DNA from: Cellulophaga sp. HaHa_2_95
GTDB lineage: Bacteria; Bacteroidota; Bacteroidia; Flavobacteriales; Flavobacteriaceae
Assembly (NCBI RefSeq): GCF_019278565.1
Contig: NZ_CP058988.1
Span: 2,294,001-2,358,000 of the forward strand
Reading direction: 5' to 3'
Length of the DNA stretch: 64,000 nucleotides
The position numbers and the translations under genes are program-made. Under the pieces are notes generated by a model. That model saw only the letters and a program-made list of their open reading frames with translations, was not told the origin of the DNA and did not search any database. Shown piece after piece: positions 7,563 through 16,526 of the stretch. Every line of letters begins with the position of its first letter. The stretch's first letter is position 1.

Positions 7563-8378
7563 ATGGATAAATTGCCAAAAATTGCATTACCTGCAGTCTT
7601 CGCATTAGTAGTTTTAATAATATTAATTTCAAAATCTACCGTCACGGTTGACTCTGGTCAGGCGGGTGTGTTGTACAAACAATTTCAAGGTGGTGTGGTT
7701 ACAGATGAGCCACCATTAGGGGAGGGCTTTCATTTTGTAGCGCCATGGAATAAAGTGTTTATCTACGAGGTAAGGCAACAAGAAGTGTTAGAGAAAATGA
7801 ATGTTTTATCTAGTAATGGTTTGGATATTAAATTAGAAGCTTCGGCTTGGTTTGAGCCTGTTCGTAGTGAATTAGGGAAGTTGCACCAGGAAAAGGGAGA
7901 AGATTATATTCAAAGAGTTTTATTGCCTACTATACGTTCTGCTGCGCGTTCTGTGGTAGGTCGTTACACACCAGAACAATTATATTCTAGTAAGCGTGAT
8001 GCTATACAACAAGAGATTTTTGATGAGACAAAAAAAATTGTAGAGGGGGAGTATATTCAACTTAATGAAATTTTAGTGCGCGATGTAACGCTGCCGCCAA
8101 CTATTAAGGAAGCTATTGAACGTAAATTACGCCAGGAGCAAGAGTCTTTAGAATATGAGTTCCGTTTAGTTACCGCTAAGAAGGAAGCTGAAAAAGTAAC
8201 TATAGAAGCACAAGGTAAGGCAGATGCCAACCGCATATTAAGTGCATCTTTAAATGATCAAATTTTAAAAGATAAAGGTATAGATGCTACATTGGAGCTT
8301 TCTAAATCACCAAATACTAAAGTTGTTGTAGTAGGTGGGGGAGAATCTGGATTACCTTTAATTTTAGGGAACAATTAA
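7563..8378 (+). CDS. Prohibitin-family SPFH/Band 7 membrane protein
   Basis: The 271-aa protein has a single N-terminal membrane helix (~7-24), an SPFH domain (~25-200) and a charged helical region (~185-225) rich in E, K and R. YEVRQQE, VLLPTIRSAARSVVG and EYIQLNEILVRDVTLP are typical of prohibitins. SPFH proteins form large ring or microdomain scaffolds in membranes and often regulate membrane proteases. It is co-directional with the VWA membrane protein just upstream. Confidence 0.88.
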   Translation: MDKLPKIALPAVFALVVLIILISKSTVTVDSGQAGVLYKQFQGGVVTDEPPLGEGFHFVAPWNKVFIYEVRQQEVLEKMNVLSSNGLDIKLEASAWFEPVRSELGKLHQEKGEDYIQRVLLPTIRSAARSVVGRYTPEQLYSSKRDAIQQEIFDETKKIVEGEYIQLNEILVRDVTLPPTIKEAIERKLRQEQESLEYEFRLVTAKKEAEKVTIEAQGKADANRILSASLNDQILKDKGIDATLELSKSPNTKVVVVGGGESGLPLILGNN

Positions 8379-8410
8379 TCTGTTAGTTTTTAAATAAAAA
8401 CAAGAACAGT

Positions 8411-8441
8411 TGTTAAAAAAATAGATTTTTGTTTTTTAACA
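8411..8441 (+). repeat. AT-rich inverted repeat upstream of the his leader
   Basis: TGTTAAAAAA (8411-8420) and TTTTTTAACA (8432-8441) are exact reverse complements with an 11-nt loop containing a TTTG. It may be a weak terminator for the prohibitin gene or part of the his promoter region. Confidence 0.4.
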
Positions 8442-8462
8442 CATAAAATAATTTTACTTTTA
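8429..8462 (+). promoter_or_regulatory. Candidate his operon promoter
   Basis: TTG (8429-8431) and TACTTTTA (8455-8462, one mismatch to TAnnTTTG) are separated by 23 nt. A start site a few bases downstream would lie very close to the ATG of the leader peptide, implying a very short or absent 5' UTR. This is inference from consensus only. Confidence 0.35.
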
Positions 8463-8469
8463 CATCAGA

Positions 8470-8526
8470 ATGAAAAATACAACTACACATCATCATCATT
8501 TTTATACTTGCTTTCAAGCGAGGTAG
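8470..8526 (+). CDS. hisL: His operon leader peptide (attenuator), 18 aa
   Basis: The ORF reads MKNTTTHHHHFYTCFQAR and ends at TAG 8524-8526. Four consecutive CAT histidine codons (8488-8499) lie directly upstream of a terminator hairpin and the hisG gene, the hallmark of ribosome-mediated attenuation of histidine synthesis. When His-tRNA is scarce the ribosome would stall on the CAT run. The peptide itself is not expected to have a function. It is too short for ordinary gene finders. Confidence 0.88.
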   Translation: MKNTTTHHHHFYTCFQAR

Positions 8527-8528
8527 AA

Positions 8529-8552
8529 ATGTATTGTAGTAGTGCAACATAT
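8529..8552 (+). promoter_or_regulatory. Pre-terminator hairpin in the his leader
   Basis: ATGTATTGTA (8529-8538) can pair with TGCAACATAT (8543-8552) across a GTAG loop, with one mismatch and two G-U pairs. It lies between the leader stop codon and the terminator and may stack on the terminator in the off state. Confidence 0.45.
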
Positions 8553-8555
8553 TTT

Positions 8556-8590
8556 AAACCCGTTTGAGCAATCAAACGGGTTTTATTTTT
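8556..8590 (+). terminator. His attenuator terminator
   Basis: AAACCCGTTTGA (8556-8567) and TCAAACGGGTTT (8572-8583) form a perfect 12-bp stem with a GCAA loop, followed by a T-rich tract. An alternative pairing of TTGCTTTCAAG (8508-8518) with TTTGAGCAA (8563-8571) would break it and can act as antiterminator. Confidence 0.88.
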
Positions 8591-8629
8591 AAACTTTTTT
8601 TTGATTGCCAGACACAAACTAAAAAGAAA

Positions 8630-9487
8630 ATGACAAAAATTAGAATTGCTATTCAAAAATCAGGACGGTTAAATGAAGAATCTATTGAGATTCTTAAAGA
8701 TTGTGGTATCTCTATTGATAACGGTCGCGATCAATTAAAAGCGTCTTCTCGTAACTTTCCTATGGAAGTGTTTTATTTGAGAAATGGAGATATTCCTCAA
8801 TACTTAAGAGACGGTGTGGTAGATATCGCTATCATAGGTGAAAATGTGTTGATAGAAAAAGGAGAAGATATTTCTATCGCAGAAAAATTGGGTTTTTCAA
8901 AATGTAAAGTGTCTTTAGCAGTGCCAAAGGCTGTAAAGTATACTTCTGTTCAAGATTTTCAAGGCAAACGAATTGCCACATCGTATCCAAATACCGTTAA
9001 AAATTATTTAGCAGACAAAGGGGTTTCTGCAGATATTCACATTATTAACGGTTCTGTAGAGATTGCTCCAAATATTGGATTAGCAGATGCTATTTGTGAT
9101 ATCGTATCTAGTGGAAGTACCTTGTTTAAAAACAATTTGAAAGAAGTAGAAGTAATGTTAAAGAGTGAGGCTGTTTTGGCGGTTTCACCAAAAATAACTT
9201 CTGAGAGGAGAGATATTCTTGAAAAATTACAATTCAGAATTCAGTCGGTATTACGAGCAAGACAATCTAAATATGTATTGTTGAATGCTCCGAATGATAA
9301 ATTGCCTATGATTTTGAACTTATTACCAGGAATGCGTAGTCCTACAGTTTTGCCATTAGCAGAGGAAGGCTGGAGTTCTGTACACACGGTAATTAAGAAA
9401 GATTCTTTCTGGGAAGTAATAGATGAGTTAAAGCAGGCTGGCGCTGAAGGTATTCTAGTTTGCCCAATTGAGAAAATGGTGCTTTAA
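8630..9487 (+). CDS. hisG: ATP phosphoribosyltransferase (long form)
   Basis: First enzyme of histidine synthesis, joining ATP and PRPP. The product from the ATG at 8630 is 285 aa, the length of the long hexameric HisG with a C-terminal ACT-like regulatory domain (~210-285) that usually confers feedback inhibition by histidine. The start MTKIRIAIQKSGRLNEES matches the family N-terminus. The same frame is open back to a TTG at 8564, but that extension runs through the attenuator terminator and is rejected. It is the first structural gene of the his operon. Confidence 0.96.
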   Translation: MTKIRIAIQKSGRLNEESIEILKDCGISIDNGRDQLKASSRNFPMEVFYLRNGDIPQYLRDGVVDIAIIGENVLIEKGEDISIAEKLGFSKCKVSLAVPKAVKYTSVQDFQGKRIATSYPNTVKNYLADKGVSADIHIINGSVEIAPNIGLADAICDIVSSGSTLFKNNLKEVEVMLKSEAVLAVSPKITSERRDILEKLQFRIQSVLRARQSKYVLLNAPNDKLPMILNLLPGMRSPTVLPLAEEGWSSVHTVIKKDSFWEVIDELKQAGAEGILVCPIEKMVL

Positions 9488-9496
9488 AAAAAGCTC

Positions 9497-9934
9497 ATGA
9501 AGGCTGATTTTGAATTAAAATTGATTCCCTATGAAGAAATGGAGTCGATTATTCCGCTGGTAATTCAATTAAATTTGGGAAAATTACCAGAAGAAACATT
9601 GAAAAGCAGATTAAAAGACATGCTTAAAATGGGAGGATATCAATGCATAGGTGTATATGATAACAACCAATTAATAGCCTGTTGTGGATTTTGGGTGTTA
9701 AACAAGCTATATGCAGGGAAACATCTAGAACCGGACAATGTTTTTGTAGAAGCGAACTATCGAAGCGCAGGAGTTGGAGAATTAATGATGAATTGTTTGT
9801 TTGATTATGCTAAAAGCATTGATTGTGTTGGTGTAGAAGTGAATTGTTACCGGCACAATGAAAAAGGAAAAAAGTTCTGGGAGCGTCAAGGTTTTGAAGC
9901 TTTAGGATATCATATGATTAAGAAATTTGATTAG
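9497..9934 (+). CDS. GNAT-family N-acetyltransferase inside the his operon
   Basis: The 145-aa protein has a GNAT fold; the acetyl-CoA loop NYRSAGVGELMM (R-x-x-G-x-G type) lies at ~95-106, and a C-terminal segment FWERQGFEALGYHM is typical of the family. It starts 9 nt after hisG and ends 8 nt before hisD, so it is an integral part of the operon. The substrate is unknown. A role in histidine metabolism is suggested only by position. Confidence 0.82.
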   Translation: MKADFELKLIPYEEMESIIPLVIQLNLGKLPEETLKSRLKDMLKMGGYQCIGVYDNNQLIACCGFWVLNKLYAGKHLEPDNVFVEANYRSAGVGELMMNCLFDYAKSIDCVGVEVNCYRHNEKGKKFWERQGFEALGYHMIKKFD

Positions 9935-9942
9935 TATTTGCT

Positions 9943-11232
9943 ATGAATAAAATATATAATCCTGAAAGAGAAGATTGGAAATCAATTCTTAAGCGTCCTA
10001 CTAAGAGCGTTGCAGATATAGAAAGTACGGTAAATCAGGTTTTTGAAGAACTTCAAGAAAACGGTGATGCTACCATAAAAAAGTATACCGAAAAGTTCGA
10101 TGGCGTAGCTGTAACAGAGTTATTGGTTACGGATGATGAAATCGTAGAGGCTAATAGTTTGGTAGCTGTAGCGCTTAAAGAGGCTATTCTCTTGGCTAAG
10201 GATAACATAGATAAATTTCACGCCGCTCAGAAAACACAAAGTATAGAGGTAGAAACGAGTCCTGGTGTACATTGTTGGCAGGTAAAAAGACCAATAGATA
10301 AAGTGGGCTTATATATTCCGGGAGGAACAGCACCTTTATTTTCTACTATTTTAATGTTAGCAGTCCCTGCCAATATCGCTGGATGCTCAGAAATTGTGCT
10401 GTGTTCACCACCTAATAAAGAAGGGAAAATTCACCCGGCCATATTGTATACGGCAAACCTTTGTGGTGTCACAAAAATATATAAGGTAGGAGGGATACAG
10501 GCTATAGCGGCAATGACCTTTGGAACAGAAACCATTCCGCAAGTGTATAAGATATTTGGACCAGGAAATCAGTACGTTACTGTAGCGAAGCAGATTGCTA
10601 CAAAGCATGGTGTGGCTATTGATATGCCTGCGGGGCCAAGCGAGCTTTTGGTGGTGGCGGATGATACTGCAAATGCGGCGTTTGTCGCATCAGATTTGCT
10701 TAGTCAGGCAGAGCATGGTGTTGATAGTCAGGTGCTATTGGTAACCACCTCTAAAGCAATGCTTGAAGCTGTAGAGGAAGAAGTTGCCTTGCAAATTGAA
10801 GATTTACCACGTAAGGATATTGCTCAAAAAGCGATAGATAATAGTAAGTTAATTTATGTTGAGGATGATGCAACGGCACAGGAATTAATTAATGAATATG
10901 GTCCAGAACATTATATAGTTTGTGTGGCAGATGAGGGATCTTATTTGAGTGCAATTACAAATGCAGGATCCGTTTTTATTGGAAATTACACCCCTGAAAG
11001 TGCCGGAGATTATGCTTCAGGAACTAACCATACCTTGCCAACAAATGGGTATGCAAAGCAGTATAGTGGTGTTAATTTAGATAGTTTCATGAAAAGCATG
11101 ACTTTTCAGAAGATTTCAAAAGAAGGAATTCAAGAAATTGGTAGTGCAATTGAGCTAATGGCGGAAGCAGAAGGCTTACAAGCACACAAAAATGCTGTTA
11201 CATTACGACTAAATAGTTTGGACGATGAGTAA
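9943..11232 (+). CDS. hisD: Histidinol dehydrogenase
   Basis: Catalyses the last two steps of histidine synthesis (histidinol to histidinal to histidine, NAD-dependent, zinc enzyme). The 429-aa length fits. Zinc ligands are in LLSQAEHGVDSQ, the catalytic Glu-His pair in YGPEHYI, and the NAD/substrate region PAGPSELLVVAD is present. It overlaps hisC by 8 nt. Confidence 0.97.
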   Translation: MNKIYNPEREDWKSILKRPTKSVADIESTVNQVFEELQENGDATIKKYTEKFDGVAVTELLVTDDEIVEANSLVAVALKEAILLAKDNIDKFHAAQKTQSIEVETSPGVHCWQVKRPIDKVGLYIPGGTAPLFSTILMLAVPANIAGCSEIVLCSPPNKEGKIHPAILYTANLCGVTKIYKVGGIQAIAAMTFGTETIPQVYKIFGPGNQYVTVAKQIATKHGVAIDMPAGPSELLVVADDTANAAFVASDLLSQAEHGVDSQVLLVTTSKAMLEAVEEEVALQIEDLPRKDIAQKAIDNSKLIYVEDDATAQELINEYGPEHYIVCVADEGSYLSAITNAGSVFIGNYTPESAGDYASGTNHTLPTNGYAKQYSGVNLDSFMKSMTFQKISKEGIQEIGSAIELMAEAEGLQAHKNAVTLRLNSLDDE

Positions 11233-12271
11233 GGTTGATATACAAAACCTAGTACGGGAGAATGTAAAGGGGTTAAGTCCGTATTCTTCAGCGCGTGATG
11301 AATACGTTTCAGATGGTTCAGATATGGTGTTTTTAGACGCTAACGAGAATCCTTTTGAAAATGGTGTGAATAGGTACCCGGATCCTCAGCAAAGAAGCTT
11401 AAAAGAGGTATTGGCATCTCAAAAAGGGGTGCTACCTGCTAATATTCTTTTTGGGAATGGGAGTGACGAAGTTTTAGATCTAATCTTCCGCGCTTTTTGT
11501 GAACCAAAAGAAGACAATATTATTACCCTACCGCCAACCTACGGGATGTATAAGGTGTTGTCAGGGATCAATGATATTGAGAATAGAGAAGTTTTGTTAA
11601 CGGCAGATTTTGAGCCTGATGTCAACCGGATTTTGGAGACGTCTGATGCTAAGTCTAAATTATTATTCCTTTGCTCGCCAAACAATCCTACAGCAAATAG
11701 TTTTTCGCGAAACAAGATCACAGAACTATTAGAGAAGTTTGATGGAATAGTCATTATTGATGAAGCGTATATAGATTTTTCAAAAGAAGAATCATGGTTG
11801 TCTGAACTACCGAATTATACAAATTTAATACTTACTCAAACACTATCTAAGGCATACGGAATGGCTGGTATTCGATTAGGGGTGTGTTATGCATCTGAAG
11901 AGATTATTGCTATTCTAAATAAGATTAAGCCTCCATACAATGTAAATGAACTTACTCAGAAAAGAGCATTAGAGCGTGTTTTGAATGTTGATAAAATAAA
12001 ATCGGAAATTGCTGACATATTGAAGGAAAGAGCTTTGTTATCTAAAGCATTACTTCAATTAAATTTCGTAACTAAAGTATATGCTACTGATGCTAATTTT
12101 GTTTTAGCAAAACTAGATAATGCTACAGAACGATACAATCAGTTATTAGCGAGAGGTGTTGTGGTAAGGAACCGTACAACGCAACCTTTATGTGAAAACA
12201 CATTACGCTTCACAGTAGGTACTACAGCGGAGAATAAAAAATTAATGCAGGTTTTAAAAGAAATTCAATAA
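11225..12271 (+). CDS. hisC: Histidinol-phosphate aminotransferase
   Basis: PLP-dependent aminotransferase (fold type I) converting imidazole acetol phosphate to histidinol phosphate, 348 aa. It shows FLDANENPF near the N-terminus, SPNNPTAN, and the PLP lysine in [13 protein letters not shown]. The ATG overlaps the end of hisD by 8 nt, supporting translational coupling. Confidence 0.96.
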
Positions 12272-12273
12272 GC

Positions 12274-13407
12274 ATGAAAAAAGTACTTTTTATAGATCGA
12301 GATGGTACGATTATTAAAGAAACCGTTGATGAGCAAATCGATGGTTTTGAAAAAATGACCTTTTATCCAAAAGCGTTTACATTTTTGGGTAAAATAGCTA
12401 AGGAGTTGGATTATGAATTGGTGATGATCACCAACCAAGACGGACTAGGAACAGACGTTTTTCCAGAAGATACATTTTGGCCTGTGCATAATTTTATCAT
12501 GAATTCTTTTGAAAATGAGGGGGTTGTATTTGATAAAGTTTTCCTTGACAGAACTTTTCCACATGAAAATGCTAACACGCGTAAACCAGGTACCGGATTG
12601 TTGACAGCATATTTCTCTGAAGAATATGATTTAGCAAATTCTTTTGTAATCGGAGATCGGTTAACGGATATGGAATTAGCTAAAAATCTTGGAGCTAAAG
12701 GTATTTTTATCAACGATGAAACCAATCTAGGTACTGGTGAAATAACGGTGAAACGAGATGAGTTAGATGCGTATATTGCTACTGAAACCAACGATTGGGA
12801 AAAAATCTATGAGTTTTTAAAATTAAAAGATAGGGTTTCTAGTATTAGCCGTAAGACAAATGAAACTGATATTCAAATTAAGGTAAATCTAGATGGCACA
12901 GGTAAAAGTAGCATCGCTACAGGCCTTGCCTTTTTTGACCATATGCTAGATCAGCTAGCGCGTCACGGTCAAATGGATTTAGATATTAAAGTAGATGGTG
13001 ATCTAGAGGTAGATGAACACCATACTATAGAAGATACCGCAATTGCTTTAGGGGAAGTTTTCCATAAGGCATTAGGTACCAAGCTAGGTATTGAGCGTTA
13101 CGGGTTTTGTTTGCCTATGGATGATTGTTTAGCGCAAGTGGCTATCGATTTTGGTGGTAGAAACTGGCTCGTATGGGAGGCAGATTTTAAGAGAGAAAAA
13201 GTAGGAGATATGCCTACGGAAATGTTTCTGCACTTTTTTAAATCATTTAGTGACGGTGCTAAAGCCAATATCAATATAAAAGCAGAAGGTGTTAATGAGC
13301 ATCACAAGATTGAGGCAATATTTAAAGCTTTTGCTAAGGCAATAAAAATGGCTGTAAAACGCGACGTAGAAAAGATGGTCTTACCGTCTACGAAAGGAAT
13401 GTTATAA
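12274..13407 (+). CDS. hisB: Bifunctional histidinol-phosphatase / imidazoleglycerol-phosphate dehydratase
   Basis: The 377-aa fusion carries a HAD-type phosphatase (~1-165, nucleophile motif FIDRDGTI with D8 and D10; [10 protein letters not shown] further on) and an IGP dehydratase (~185-377) with the manganese-binding HHTIED and EHHKIE motifs. It performs two non-adjacent steps of histidine synthesis. It starts 2 nt after hisC. Confidence 0.97.
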
Positions 13408-13416
13408 AATAGTTGA

Positions 13417-13998
13417 ATGAAAATAGTAATTATAAATTACGGAGCTGGAAATATTCAAAGCATAAAATTTGCAATTCAACGCCTTGGTTTTGAGGCTGTT
13501 TTAACAAATGATGTAGATGAAATTCTAGCAGCCGATAAGGTCATTTTTCCAGGGGTTGGCGAAGCAAGTAGTGCAATGCATAAATTGCGAGCCAGTGGTT
13601 TAGATGCCTTGGTTCCAAAATTAAAACAGCCTGTTTTAGGGATTTGTCTAGGAATGCAATTAATGTGTAATTCAACCGAAGAAGGTAGCACAGATGGCTT
13701 AGGAATTTTTGATGTGAATGTAGTGAAGTTTTCAAGTCAAGTAAAAGTGCCGCAAATTGGATGGAATCAAATTCAGGATTTAAGGTCAGAATTATTCAAT
13801 GAGGTTTCGGAAGAAGAGTACATTTATTTGGTACATAGTTATTACGCACCAATTTGTGAAGAGACGATAGCAACATCTGATTATGATGTTATCTATAGCG
13901 CGGCATTACAAAAAGACAATTTTTACGGAACCCAGTTTCACCCTGAAAAAAGCAGTAGCGTTGGGGAAAAAATTCTTTTGAATTTTTTAAAAATGTAA
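13417..13998 (+). CDS. hisH: Imidazole glycerol phosphate synthase, glutamine amidotransferase subunit
   Basis: Class I glutaminase that feeds ammonia to HisF. The 193-aa length is typical. The nucleophile Cys is in GICLGMQ, and the His-Glu pair in QFHPEKS. It is separated from its partner hisF by a GNAT gene and hisA but is in the same operon. Confidence 0.96.
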   Translation: MKIVIINYGAGNIQSIKFAIQRLGFEAVLTNDVDEILAADKVIFPGVGEASSAMHKLRASGLDALVPKLKQPVLGICLGMQLMCNSTEEGSTDGLGIFDVNVVKFSSQVKVPQIGWNQIQDLRSELFNEVSEEEYIYLVHSYYAPICEETIATSDYDVIYSAALQKDNFYGTQFHPEKSSSVGEKILLNFLKM

Positions 13999-14002
13999 GA
14001 CC

Positions 14003-14419
14003 ATGTCATTCGTAATTTCAACAGATAAAGACAAATTAGATATAAAAAAAATACACCAATACATTAGTGTAGAATCTTATTGGGGTGTAGGTAGAACTAT
14101 TGAAGAAGTGAAAACTACTATTGATCATTCTTTTTGTTTTGGAATTTATGATAAAAACGGCGAACAAATAGGTTTTTCAAGGGTCGTTACAGATCAAATT
14201 TTGTTTGCTTATTTAATGGATGTTATCATTTTTACGAAATACCAAGGTAATGGTTATGGCAAGCACCTTGTAGATTTTATGATGAATCATGAATTAATTA
14301 AAAAAGTAAAGACAATTGCTCTCAAAACAAAAGATGCACATAGTTTGTATGAGCGACACGGATTTAAAAAAGTTGGAAATTCTGATTTTTGGATGTCCAT
14401 TGATAAAATAAAATTATAA
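14003..14419 (+). CDS. Second GNAT-family N-acetyltransferase inside the his operon
   Basis: The 138-aa protein has the acetyl-CoA binding loop [12 protein letters not shown] (Q-x-x-G-x-G type, ~86-97) and a C-terminal [13 protein letters not shown] segment typical of GNATs. Its stop overlaps the hisA start by 1 nt (TAATG), so it is translationally coupled to the his genes. It is not a recent duplicate of the other embedded GNAT; sequence similarity by eye is low. Substrate unknown. Confidence 0.82.
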
Positions 14420-15162
14420 TGAGAATTATCCCAGCAATAGATATTATAGACGGTAAATGTGTTCGGCTTTCAAAAGGTGATTATGACACTAAGAAAATTT
14501 ACAATGAAAATCCACTTGAAGTCGCCAAAGATTTTGAGGCGCACGGAATTGAATATTTACATTTAGTAGACTTAGATGGAGCCAAGTCTAAACATATTGT
14601 AAATCATAAGGTATTAGAACAAATAGCGTCACAAACCAATTTGAAAATCGATTTTGGTGGTGGTTTAAAGACCGATGAGGATTTGAAAATAGCTTTCAAT
14701 AGTGGAGCTTCTCAAATTACAGGCGGAAGCATTGCGGTAAAAGATCAGGACACATTTTTAGGTTGGATAGAAACTTACGGAGCTGAAAAAATTATCTTGG
14801 GAGCCGATGCTTTGCACGAGAAAGTGGCAGTTTCAGGGTGGCAGGAAGATTCTAAACAAGAACTAATACCGTTTATTCAGGCTTATCAGGATAAGGGAAT
14901 TGTATTTGTTATCTGTACAGACATAAGTAAAGACGGTATGTTGCAAGGACCTTCGTTTGATTTGTATGAACGTATTTTAAACGAAACAAGTCAAGGAATT
15001 GATGGAAGTGGAATTCATTTGATTGCCTCAGGAGGTATTTCTACCTTTGATGAGTTGCCTAAATTAGCGGAACTAGGTTGTGAGGGAACTATCATTGGAA
15101 AAGCTATTTACGAGAATAGAATCAGTTTAAAACAATTAGAAGATTACATACTTTCTAAATAA
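14419..15162 (+). CDS. hisA: ProFAR isomerase
   Basis: TIM-barrel isomerase of histidine synthesis (5'-ProFAR to PRFAR), 247 aa. It begins [18 protein letters not shown] with the catalytic Asp near residue 8 and has a second Asp in [14 protein letters not shown]. Phosphate-binding glycine motifs DFGGGLKT and IASGGIS are present. It is coupled to the preceding GNAT through TAATG and lies 5 nt ahead of hisF. Confidence 0.96.
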
Positions 15163-15167
15163 ACAAT

Positions 15168-15923
15168 ATGCTAACAAAACGAATAATACCTTGTTTAGAT
15201 ATTAAAAACGGACGTACCGTAAAAGGGATCAATTTTGTTGATTTACGTGATGCAGGTGATCCGGTAGAATTGGCTGAAATCTATGCCAATTCAGGAGCAG
15301 ATGAGTTGGTTTTTCTAGACATTTCAGCTACCGAAGAAAAACGTAAAACACTTGCTGATTTGGTTTATCGGGTAGCGGAAAAAGTAAATATTCCGTTTAC
15401 CGTAGGTGGCGGTATAGCTTCTATTGAAGATGTAGATATGCTATTGCAAAATGGTGCTGATAAGGTATCTATAAACTCATCAGCTGTTAAAAATCCCCAA
15501 TTAATAAATGATTTATCGGCAAAATTTGGTTCGCAATGTATCGTTGTTGCTATAGATGCTAAGTTCATTGATGGAGAGTGGATTGTGCATTTGGTAGGAG
15601 GAAAAGTGCCTACGGAAATTCGCTTGTTTGATTGGGCTAAGGAAGTAGAGATACGCGGTGCAGGTGAAATTTTGTTTACCTCTATGGATAATGATGGTAC
15701 AAAAGATGGTTTTGCAAATGAGGCGCTGGCTAGATTATCTACAGAATTAAATATACCCATCATTGCCTCTGGTGGCGCGGGTAATATGCAGCATTTTACA
15801 GATACATTTATAGAGGGTAAAGCAGATGCAGCGCTTGCAGCAAGTGTATTTCATTTTAAAGAAATAGAAATTGTAGATTTAAAAAAAGAATTAAAAGATA
15901 ACGGGATTCCTGTTAGAATATAA
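15168..15923 (+). CDS. hisF: Imidazole glycerol phosphate synthase, cyclase subunit
   Basis: TIM-barrel cyclase that works with HisH to make imidazole glycerol phosphate and AICAR. The 251-aa protein starts with [16 protein letters not shown] (catalytic Asp ~11) and has the second catalytic Asp in VVAIDAK. Phosphate-binding loops FTVGGGIAS and IIASGGAGN are present. Confidence 0.97.
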
Positions 15924-15929
15924 AATAGT

Positions 15930-16526
15930 ATGAAAATAGATTTCGATAAAAATTCAGACGGATTAATACCAGCCATAATACAAGATGCTACAACAAAAAA
16001 TGTGTTAATGCTCGGGTACATGAACCAGGAGGCTTTTGATAAGACTCAGGAAACCAAAAAAGTTACATTTTTTAGCCGTACTAAAAAACGTTTGTGGACC
16101 AAAGGAGAAGAAAGTGGTAATTTCTTGAACCTTGTGACAATTAAAAATGATTGTGACAATGATACTTTACTTATTACCGTAAATCCAGTAGGACCTACTT
16201 GTCATAAAGGAACAGATACTTGTTGGGAGGAAGAAAACGCGAGTTCTTTTGGTTTCCTAACCAAGCTTGAAGCAATCATAACAGATCGTAAAGACAATCC
16301 GGAGAATCAAGATAGCTATGTCGCGTCCCTTTTTAGAAAAGGAATTAATAAAGTAGCGCAAAAAGTAGGAGAAGAAGCGGTAGAAGTGGTTATTGAAGCA
16401 AAAGATAATGATGATAAATTATTTTTAGATGAGAGTGCAGATTTACTCTTCCATTACTTAATTCTATTACAGGCAAAGGGATTTACGTTGAAAGATATTG
16501 AAGAAGTCTTGAAGAAGAGAAACTAA
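15930..16526 (+). CDS. hisIE: Bifunctional phosphoribosyl-AMP cyclohydrolase / phosphoribosyl-ATP pyrophosphatase
   Basis: Performs steps 2 and 3 of histidine synthesis. The N-terminal HisI part (~1-105) has TIKNDCDNDTLL and the zinc-binding GPTCHKGTDTCW. The C-terminal HisE part (~110-198) has the MazG-like EEAVEVVIEA and LLFHYLILL helices. It is the last gene of the operon and is followed by a strong terminator. Confidence 0.97.
   Translation: MKIDFDKNSDGLIPAIIQDATTKNVLMLGYMNQEAFDKTQETKKVTFFSRTKKRLWTKGEESGNFLNLVTIKNDCDNDTLLITVNPVGPTCHKGTDTCWEEENASSFGFLTKLEAIITDRKDNPENQDSYVASLFRKGINKVAQKVGEEAVEVVIEAKDNDDKLFLDESADLLFHYLILLQAKGFTLKDIEEVLKKRN

Follow-up and report, generated by a model that had tools for sequence, protein, structure and literature searches.

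Introduction

In Cellulophaga sp. HaHa_2_95, a short open reading frame (ORF) containing consecutive histidine codons and an intrinsic terminator precede hisG, and the question raised by this locus is whether these elements form a switch in which a ribosome on the histidine codons decides between termination and entry into the his operon. The window analysed here is the whole stretch of 64,000 nucleotides that contains the locus. A first-pass annotation had proposed a his attenuator and listed an ATG at 8470, 18 codons with four CAT, a TAG at 8524, a 12-bp terminator, hisG and TACTTTTA at 8455, all of which are present as described. The element is a ribosome-mediated transcription attenuator of the his operon with a probability of about 0.93, and its sequence makes histidine-responsive attenuation of this kind very likely. 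It has every testable defining feature of a classical his-type attenuator and matches no Rfam model. These features are an ORF with cognate codons, predicted to be translated; a terminator before hisG; an antiterminator that shares an arm with this terminator; an early hairpin (1:2), which is seen in the pairing and is predicted to block the antiterminator in time; and a geometry in which, judged from spacing and from masked folding with assumed footprints, a stalled ribosome frees segment 2 of the leader RNA and a ribosome at the stop codon covers it (Table 1).

Table 1. Features of the his leader region and operon (window coordinates)
Feature	Position	Strand	Description
-7 promoter box TACTTTTA	8455-8462	+	TAnnTTTR match, ends 7 nt before leader ATG; sigma-A type consensus TAnnTTTG
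Predicted transcription start	8467	+	3-nt 5' UTR (AGA); inferred from box position
Leader peptide ORF	8470-8526	+	18 codons, ATG 8470, stop TAG 8524-8526, product MKNTTTHHHHFYTCFQAR
Sensing codons, CAT x4 (His)	8488-8499	+	Within leader ORF
Stem 1:2, anti-antiterminator hairpin	8507-8511/8518-8522 (8507-8522)	+	80% of cells paired
Segment 2, antiterminator left arm	8513-8520	+	Pairs with 8561-8568
Hairpin enclosed by antiterminator	8526-8555	+	Fold of RNA 8467-8571; TGtatTG...aA.AtA conserved in alignment
Intrinsic terminator	8556-8590	+	Stem 8556-8567/8572-8583, perfect 12 bp, loop GCAA, T-tract
Segment 3, antiterminator right arm	8561-8568	+	Mostly within terminator left arm
hisG, first operon gene	8630-9487	+	ATG 8630, 285 aa, PF01634 and PF08029
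Rest of his operon	9497-16526	+	Nine co-directional genes after hisG; named by order and Pfam

The his operon and its terminator

Downstream of hisG, the gene order is GNAT, hisD, hisC, hisNB, hisH, GNAT, hisA, hisF and hisIE. Pfam backs hisG, hisD, hisNB, hisIE, hisA and hisF (both PF00977) and the two GNAT acetyltransferases; hisC and hisH are a class I/II aminotransferase and a class-I glutamine amidotransferase by Pfam and are named by position. The acetyltransferase genes lie inside the operon at 9497-9934, between hisG and hisD, and at 14003-14419, between hisH and hisA. The program-made ORF list begins hisG at an upstream TTG (8564) rather than at the ATG. On the other side of the leader, the product of the gene at 7563-8378 ends in ...LPLILGNN, and a coding sequence for a very similar C-terminus also precedes the his leader in several relatives, so that the gene order upstream of the leader looks conserved.

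The terminator arm carries the motif CCGTYTGA, which is found in 194 of the 202 loci of the Flavobacteriaceae described below. A permissive finder reports a terminator-like hairpin in all 202, a count that may include background matches.

Loci compared

The Flavobacteriaceae were sampled with one genome per genus, and hisG was found in 123 of 149 genomes, the window's own included. One of the 123 (G112), where the hisG match begins 253 bases away from the end of its contig, was left out. The family set of 202 hisG upstream regions is composed of 30 loci, the 80 closest of 540 relatives and a further 92. It includes one locus cut off at 118 nt upstream of hisG (L155), which is scored as lacking a leader. 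Six loci (L016, L017, L018, L076, L178 and L182) have fewer or interrupted histidine codons or no ATG start, and the leader of L200 is poor. Eight of the 202 loci are without a strict ATG leader and were excluded from the alignment, which comprises 194 leaders, 107 of them non-redundant at 85% identity. In the class Bacteroidia, hisG was found in 56 of 119 genomes; two of these loci were already in the family set, and 54 upstream regions are new, including one (L204) that belongs to the Flavobacteriaceae.

A conserved histidine-rich leader peptide

A short ORF was counted as histidine-rich when it held at least 3 His in 7 residues. By this criterion an ATG-initiated histidine-rich ORF lies upstream of hisG in 194 of 202 family loci, a number that rises to 196 when ATG, GTG or TTG starts are allowed. 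In the class, 48 of 54 loci have a histidine-rich ORF, which begins with ATG in 46. The same count for other residues gives far lower numbers in the family (Gln 3, Asp 1, Cys 1, Trp 3, Tyr 6, Glu 2, Met 0, Pro 4, Asn 24 and Lys 47 of 202) and in the class (Gln 0, Asp 1, Cys 0, Trp 0, Tyr 1, Glu 7, Asn 6 and Lys 12 of 54), and on the reverse strand a histidine-rich ORF occurs in 8 of 256 regions of family and class combined. A chance ORF is ruled out by these frequencies. In the 194 aligned leaders, which were preselected for at least three His, there are 3-6 His codons per leader, with CAT used 693 times and CAC 82 times. Judged by its distribution, the predicted his attenuator is old and widespread among the relatives of Cellulophaga.

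The end of the reading frame overlaps segment 2. A stop codon stands where segment 2 begins in seven leaders. In L004, L033, L043 and L056, CAG has become TAG and the GCGAGG downstream is unchanged; in L158, L165 and L194 the motif behind the early stop is slightly altered. The persistence of GCGAGG behind the new stop implies that this stretch is kept as RNA, and the C-terminal QA(R/S/K) of the peptide is best read as a reflection of RNA conservation.

Three competing stems in the leader RNA

Folding of the leader, which had been suggested as a check on the attenuation proposal, gives -36.7 kcal/mol (z -6.4), a stability that none of 200 shuffles reaches. The duplex of 8500-8528 with 8556-8571 has -15.0 kcal/mol compared with -7.2 +/- 2.1 for shuffles, of which 7 in 3000 are as good.

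Conservation of pairing was measured in cells of the alignment, with a control in which one side of a stem was slid by 1-3 positions. The terminator stem (3:4) is paired in 97% of cells against 18-56% when slid, and the core of the antiterminator (2:3, 8513-8520:8561-8568) in 813 of 854 cells from the 107 non-redundant leaders (95%) against 20-48%; stem 1:2 is paired in 80% against 30-50%. All eight pairs of stem 2:3 are kept in 142 of 194 leaders and at least seven in 188, and at least four of the five pairs of stem 1:2 in 148, with three or fewer in the other 46. The antiterminator is therefore genuine, with a conserved core of 8513-8520 paired with 8561-8568, and helix 1:2 is weaker than the other two stems. 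The first-pass annotation had drawn the antiterminator as 8508-8518:8563-8571 with a UU bulge, which is close to the energy-model fold of this sequence taken by itself, but the relatives conserve the core instead. The 5' extension of the earlier version (8508-8512:8567-8571) is poorly conserved, with 59% of cells paired against 25-53% when slid, and was rejected.

Compensatory changes point in the same direction for two of the stems. Cells changed on both sides of a pair number 22 in stem 1:2, 16 in stem 2:3 and 32 in stem 3:4, compared with slid maxima of 27, 11 and 14, so that stem 1:2, for which one slid version reaches 27, fails to beat its control on double changes; these counts are raw cells, and the tree from 144 nt of hisG is too poorly resolved for independent events to be separated. 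The outer pair of stem 1:2 (8507:8522) on its own shows 18 double changes, and 0 of 500 shuffles paired as well. In stem 2:3, the pair 8517:8564 occurs as A-U in 57 cells, G-U in 31 and G-C in 12, is unpaired in 7 and never takes the form A-C; a C at 8564 is accompanied by G at 8517 in all 12 loci that have it. When the 3' letters were redealt, the observed pairing was matched in 0 of 500 trials for 8517:8564, in 14 of 500 for 8519:8562 and in 35 of 500 for 8516:8565. The remaining five pairs are matched in 79-500 of 500 trials and say little, being near-invariant or equalled by the redeal. In one locus (L127) all three arms have changed jointly at 8519/8562/8577 from C-G-C to U-A-U. Exceptions also exist: L128 breaks the antiterminator pair 8519:8562 with the terminator pair there intact, and L162 and L191 break 8518:8563. 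On the whole, the comparison of orthologous leaders that had been proposed as a check bears out both the histidine codons and the alternative stems, which are conserved and covary at some pairs.

Spacing, partial transcripts and the proposed mechanism

The distance between the codons and the stems is nearly fixed. Alignment column 8515 follows the last codon of the His run by 15 nt in 181 of the 194 leaders, and in 174 of them the stop codon comes 9 nt after this column. Folding of partial transcripts, in which ribosomes were represented by masking assumed footprints, shows what this spacing would mean. In RNA to 8555, hairpin 1:2 has a probability of 0.99 when no ribosome is present, and of 0.96, 0.99, 0.23 and 0.00 with a ribosome on His1, His2, His3 and His4, respectively; with these footprints only ribosomes on His3 and His4 prevent it. 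In RNA to 8571, the antiterminator has a probability of 0.97-1.00 whichever His codon the ribosome occupies, of 0.97 with no ribosome and of 0.00 with a ribosome at the stop. In full-length RNA to 8590 the terminator is always preferred at equilibrium, which implies that the switch must act during transcription. As transcripts that end at 8571 favour the antiterminator also in the ribosome-free state, default termination would hinge on hairpin 1:2 forming first; this kinetic argument, that the early hairpin forms before its competitors, is usual for attenuators. Since hairpin 1:2 persists with a ribosome on His1 or His2, release at these codons would need its displacement by the antiterminator.

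The mechanism proposed combines the observed sequence elements, their conservation and co-variation, the fixed spacing and the computed folds of partial RNAs with a presumed start site, presumed footprints, kinetics and response to histidine. RNA polymerase would start just upstream of the leader ATG, at the predicted start. With charged His-tRNA available, the ribosome would pass the four CAT codons and reach the stop, covering segment 2; segment 3 would then be free, the terminator would form (8556-8583) and transcription would end near 8590. When His-tRNA is scarce, the ribosome would stall on the CAT run, hairpin 1:2 would be prevented or displaced, and segments 2 and 3 would form a long antiterminator hairpin (about 8509-8570) enclosing 8526-8555, which would let the polymerase continue into hisG. 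If no ribosome loads, hairpin 1:2 would form first and termination would be the default.

Other families of Bacteroidia and other predicted attenuators

Outside the Flavobacteriaceae the terminator arm is often different, with arms of the GGCTTACC type as one example, and the loci L206-L249 include his attenuators whose terminator and antiterminator differ considerably in sequence. The strict leaders of the class number 43, of which eight lack a terminator by scan, and 35 therefore entered a test of the duplex between the post-His leader and the left arm of the terminator. This duplex beats shuffles (p <= 0.05) in 23 of the 35 and is without significance in 12; the same test is passed by 101 of 115 one-per-genus family leaders. 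As the end of the leader changes along with the terminator arm, the attenuator appears to keep its architecture throughout the class Bacteroidia as its sequences turn over. No terminator was found by scan in 11 of the 54 class loci, and the scan misses some, since imperfect terminators are visible by eye in L221 and L225. Four loci (L230, L252, L253 and L254) have a histidine-rich leader and no terminator before hisG by scan; these may be controlled in a different way.

The genome of the window itself carries several predicted attenuators. The leader of trpE (L285) reads WWW, that of ilvD (L345) VIIILL and that of pheA (L262) FFFYFFF, and each is followed by a terminator. Leaders of trp type are present in 44 of 46 trpE loci examined, and ilvD leaders in 23 of 46 by set criteria, some of them weak. 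The scan found no thr-type leader at homoserine dehydrogenase loci, where the stretches covered for the two own-genome genes begin inside the gene. An Rfam search of seven further loci (trpE, pheA, ilvD and his loci of the class) gave one match, Bacteroid-trp in L397.

Alternative explanations

The hairpin before hisG could terminate transcripts of the gene at 7563-8378 as an ordinary intrinsic terminator, with the histidine-rich ORF arising by chance, and terminator-like hairpins are frequent in intergenic regions. However, the His run, the 2:3 pairing and the spacing are all conserved in the family, and the pairing survives in other families despite their different sequences, which makes this explanation extremely unlikely. 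Action of the leader on translation, by coupling or by sequestration of the hisG start in leader RNA, would suit those class loci that have histidine-rich leaders and no terminator by scan, such as L230 and L252. It is still very unlikely in the window, where 104 nt separate the leader stop from the ATG of hisG and this interval holds the 12-bp terminator and its T-tract, with an arm motif that is kept in nearly all loci of the family.

A strong conserved structure ahead of an amino acid operon would also be expected of a T-box or riboswitch, in which the RNA binds a tRNA or a ligand and the peptide is irrelevant. In an Rfam 15 scan of the window, however, no family reaches its gathering score, and 25 weak matches (E up to 10) in 8300-8700 include neither a T-box nor the his leader model (RF00514). 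The best of these weak matches fall far short of their cut-offs and were rejected: anti-hemB with 22 bits (E 0.0057; cut-off 49.5) and L10_leader with 24.9 bits (E 0.041; cut-off 44). The conserved part moreover contains an in-frame His run whose distance to segment 2 is fixed, and an RNA sensor of this type is most improbable. Ribosome-mediated attenuation, as the first-pass annotation had it, is supported by the conserved His run, the terminator, the competing stems and the fixed spacing.

The promoter and a predicted near-leaderless start

The -7 box of sigma-A promoters, TAnnTTTG, occupies -12 to -5 in Flavobacterium psychrophilum (PMC9723704) and also in F. johnsoniae (PMC6847099). From the distance of TACTTTTA to the leader ATG, a start at 8467 with a 5' UTR of 3 nt is predicted, and the sensing peptide would probably begin almost at the first letter of the RNA. 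An overlapping box, TAATTTTA at 8449-8456, scores equally in the window and would give a UTR of about 9 nt. The relatives favour TACTTTTA, as their boxes end near the ATG: among L032-L111, the best 80 of 540 relatives, 79 loci have a leader, and in 76 of these the best box ends at most 9 nt from its ATG. Of the 194 leaders, 74 carry an exact TAnnTTTG no more than 32 nt from the ATG, with a gap of 7 in 31, of 8 in 14 and of 17-19 in 19. At the 102 loci with a gap of 7 or 8, position -4 is a C in 75 and position -3 a purine in 93. The A at -3 of his leaders could also reflect a Kozak-like signal, as has been reported for F. johnsoniae (PMC6847099).

These data lend support to a near-leaderless start in the window's clade, which the first-pass annotation had considered, on the grounds of box position and of the C/purine step at -4/-3, but some relatives differ. 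In the one-per-genus leaders of the family (n = 115), the box lies within 9 nt in 34, at 10-14 nt in 2 and farther away in 24, and none exceeds the threshold in 55, many of which show an imperfect TTTG box some 17-19 nt upstream. The class leaders (n = 42 of 43, L204 being excluded as a member of the same family) have a near box in 7, one at 10-14 nt in 9, a farther one in 16 and none in 10. A universal near-leaderless start is ruled out by these mixed distances. As a control, 329 genes of the window's genome with free upstream space were examined, each start being set, uncurated, at the earliest ATG of the ORF. An exact box lies no more than 60 nt away in 88 of them, 12 of these at a gap of 3-9. 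Enrichment over ordinary genes is weak, with Fisher p values of 0.039 for his leaders per genus, 0.037 for trp leaders, based on the 27 exact boxes in L392-L420, and 1.0 for his leaders of the class, uncorrected for relatedness or for three tests.

Other leaders of the same genome fit the pattern in part. The box gap is 6 for the trpE leader (MKNLTVNTWWWNNLRKNA) and 4 for the ilvD leader (MLEITNNIYVIIILLQE), which the leader scan missed and which was read by eye together with its gap; the pheA leader, also read by eye, has a poor box 18 nt away. Loci in which the box ends 4 nt before the ATG, and which would be exactly leaderless if that box is used, are L239 and L246 (scored) and L178 and L182 (by eye). 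We give roughly even odds to the broader proposition that attenuator leaders in the window's clade of Bacteroidia are translated from leaderless or near-leaderless mRNAs with a 5' UTR of 0-4 nt. The predicted 5' UTRs of the window's genome would then be 3 nt for his, 2 nt for trp and 0 nt for ilv, with phe as an exception at about 14 nt. If this is true, translation of the leader starts as soon as the 5' end of the RNA leaves the polymerase and is coupled to the terminator decision without an upstream region for ribosome loading. This would happen in a phylum that does not use Shine-Dalgarno initiation and in which mRNAs of this sort are few: leaders exceed 10 nt in 87% of predicted F. johnsoniae transcripts (PMC6847099), leaderless mRNAs are 5.5% of those mapped in F. 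psychrophilum (PMC9723704), and 5' UTRs below 10 nt account for about 3.7% in Bacteroides thetaiotaomicron (PMC7366714).

The locus thus offers a concrete candidate for an RNA switch of histidine genes across the Flavobacteriaceae, with an architecture that seemingly lasts across the class Bacteroidia and a copy in the window that matches no Rfam 15 family. Its unusual feature is the predicted near-leaderless start, which is conserved in the window's clade and not universal. If real, it would provide a natural system for studying how ribosomes of Bacteroidia, without Shine-Dalgarno pairing, load on a 5'-terminal AUG quickly enough to control a terminator beginning 86 nt downstream.

Comparison with known systems

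The his attenuator of E. coli and Salmonella consists of a leader peptide with a His run and alternative antiterminator and terminator structures, ahead of an operon that starts with hisG. The window's element shares the His-run leader peptide, the alternative structures and the hisG-first operon. It differs in its Bacteroidetes-type promoter, its 5' UTR of probably 3 nt and its lack of an Rfam match, and the leaders of its family have 3-6 His codons, compared with the seven consecutive His codons described for the his leader of E. coli and Salmonella (PMC3896937). The first-pass annotation was right to see enterobacterial-type logic combined with other signals, but this is less surprising than it held, as both leader-peptide attenuation in flavobacteria and a hisG element were already in print: in F. 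psychrophilum, attenuation of this type was proposed in 2021 for amino acid operons generally, and a structured 5' element without Rfam hits was reported upstream of hisG and said to be shared by other genera of the Flavobacteriaceae (PMC9723704). That element is probably the same as the one in the window, since its position, its spread in the family and the silence of Rfam agree, and the window's attenuator thereby joins a kind already reported. The section of the paper on the hisG element gives no stems, codons or mechanism (PMC9723704).

Other work on the phylum touches on the subject more loosely. Short ORFs in long 5' UTRs of B. thetaiotaomicron recall attenuation leaders (PMC7366714), and in the available text of a paper on the his genes of Bacteroidota attenuation comes up a single time, where the introduction deals with regulation (PMC8305728). 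Titles and abstract openings of the open-licence papers listed describe no his attenuator of the Bacteroidetes, although Vitreschak 2004 or Lopatovskaya 2010 could list one; leaderless attenuator leaders in Bacteroidetes are described in none of the open-licence matches listed. The Bacteroid-trp leader (RF01692), a tryptophan peptide leader of Bacteroidetes in Rfam (PMC2864571), is likewise a leader RNA ahead of an amino acid operon, but it senses tryptophan, whereas the window's element precedes the his operon. Its model matches L397 before trpE and neither the window nor the trpE locus of the same genome (L285).

The closest parallels for the predicted start come from the Actinobacteria, where mycobacterial polycysteine sORFs are reportedly leaderless attenuator leaders. 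As in these, translation of the window's leader peptide would, judged by its predicted start, begin at the 5' end of the transcript. The ilvB leader of Corynebacterium diphtheriae is also a leaderless attenuator leader, in a species where leaderless mRNAs make up 20% of genes (PMC5784534), compared with 5.5% of mapped mRNAs in F. psychrophilum (PMC9723704).
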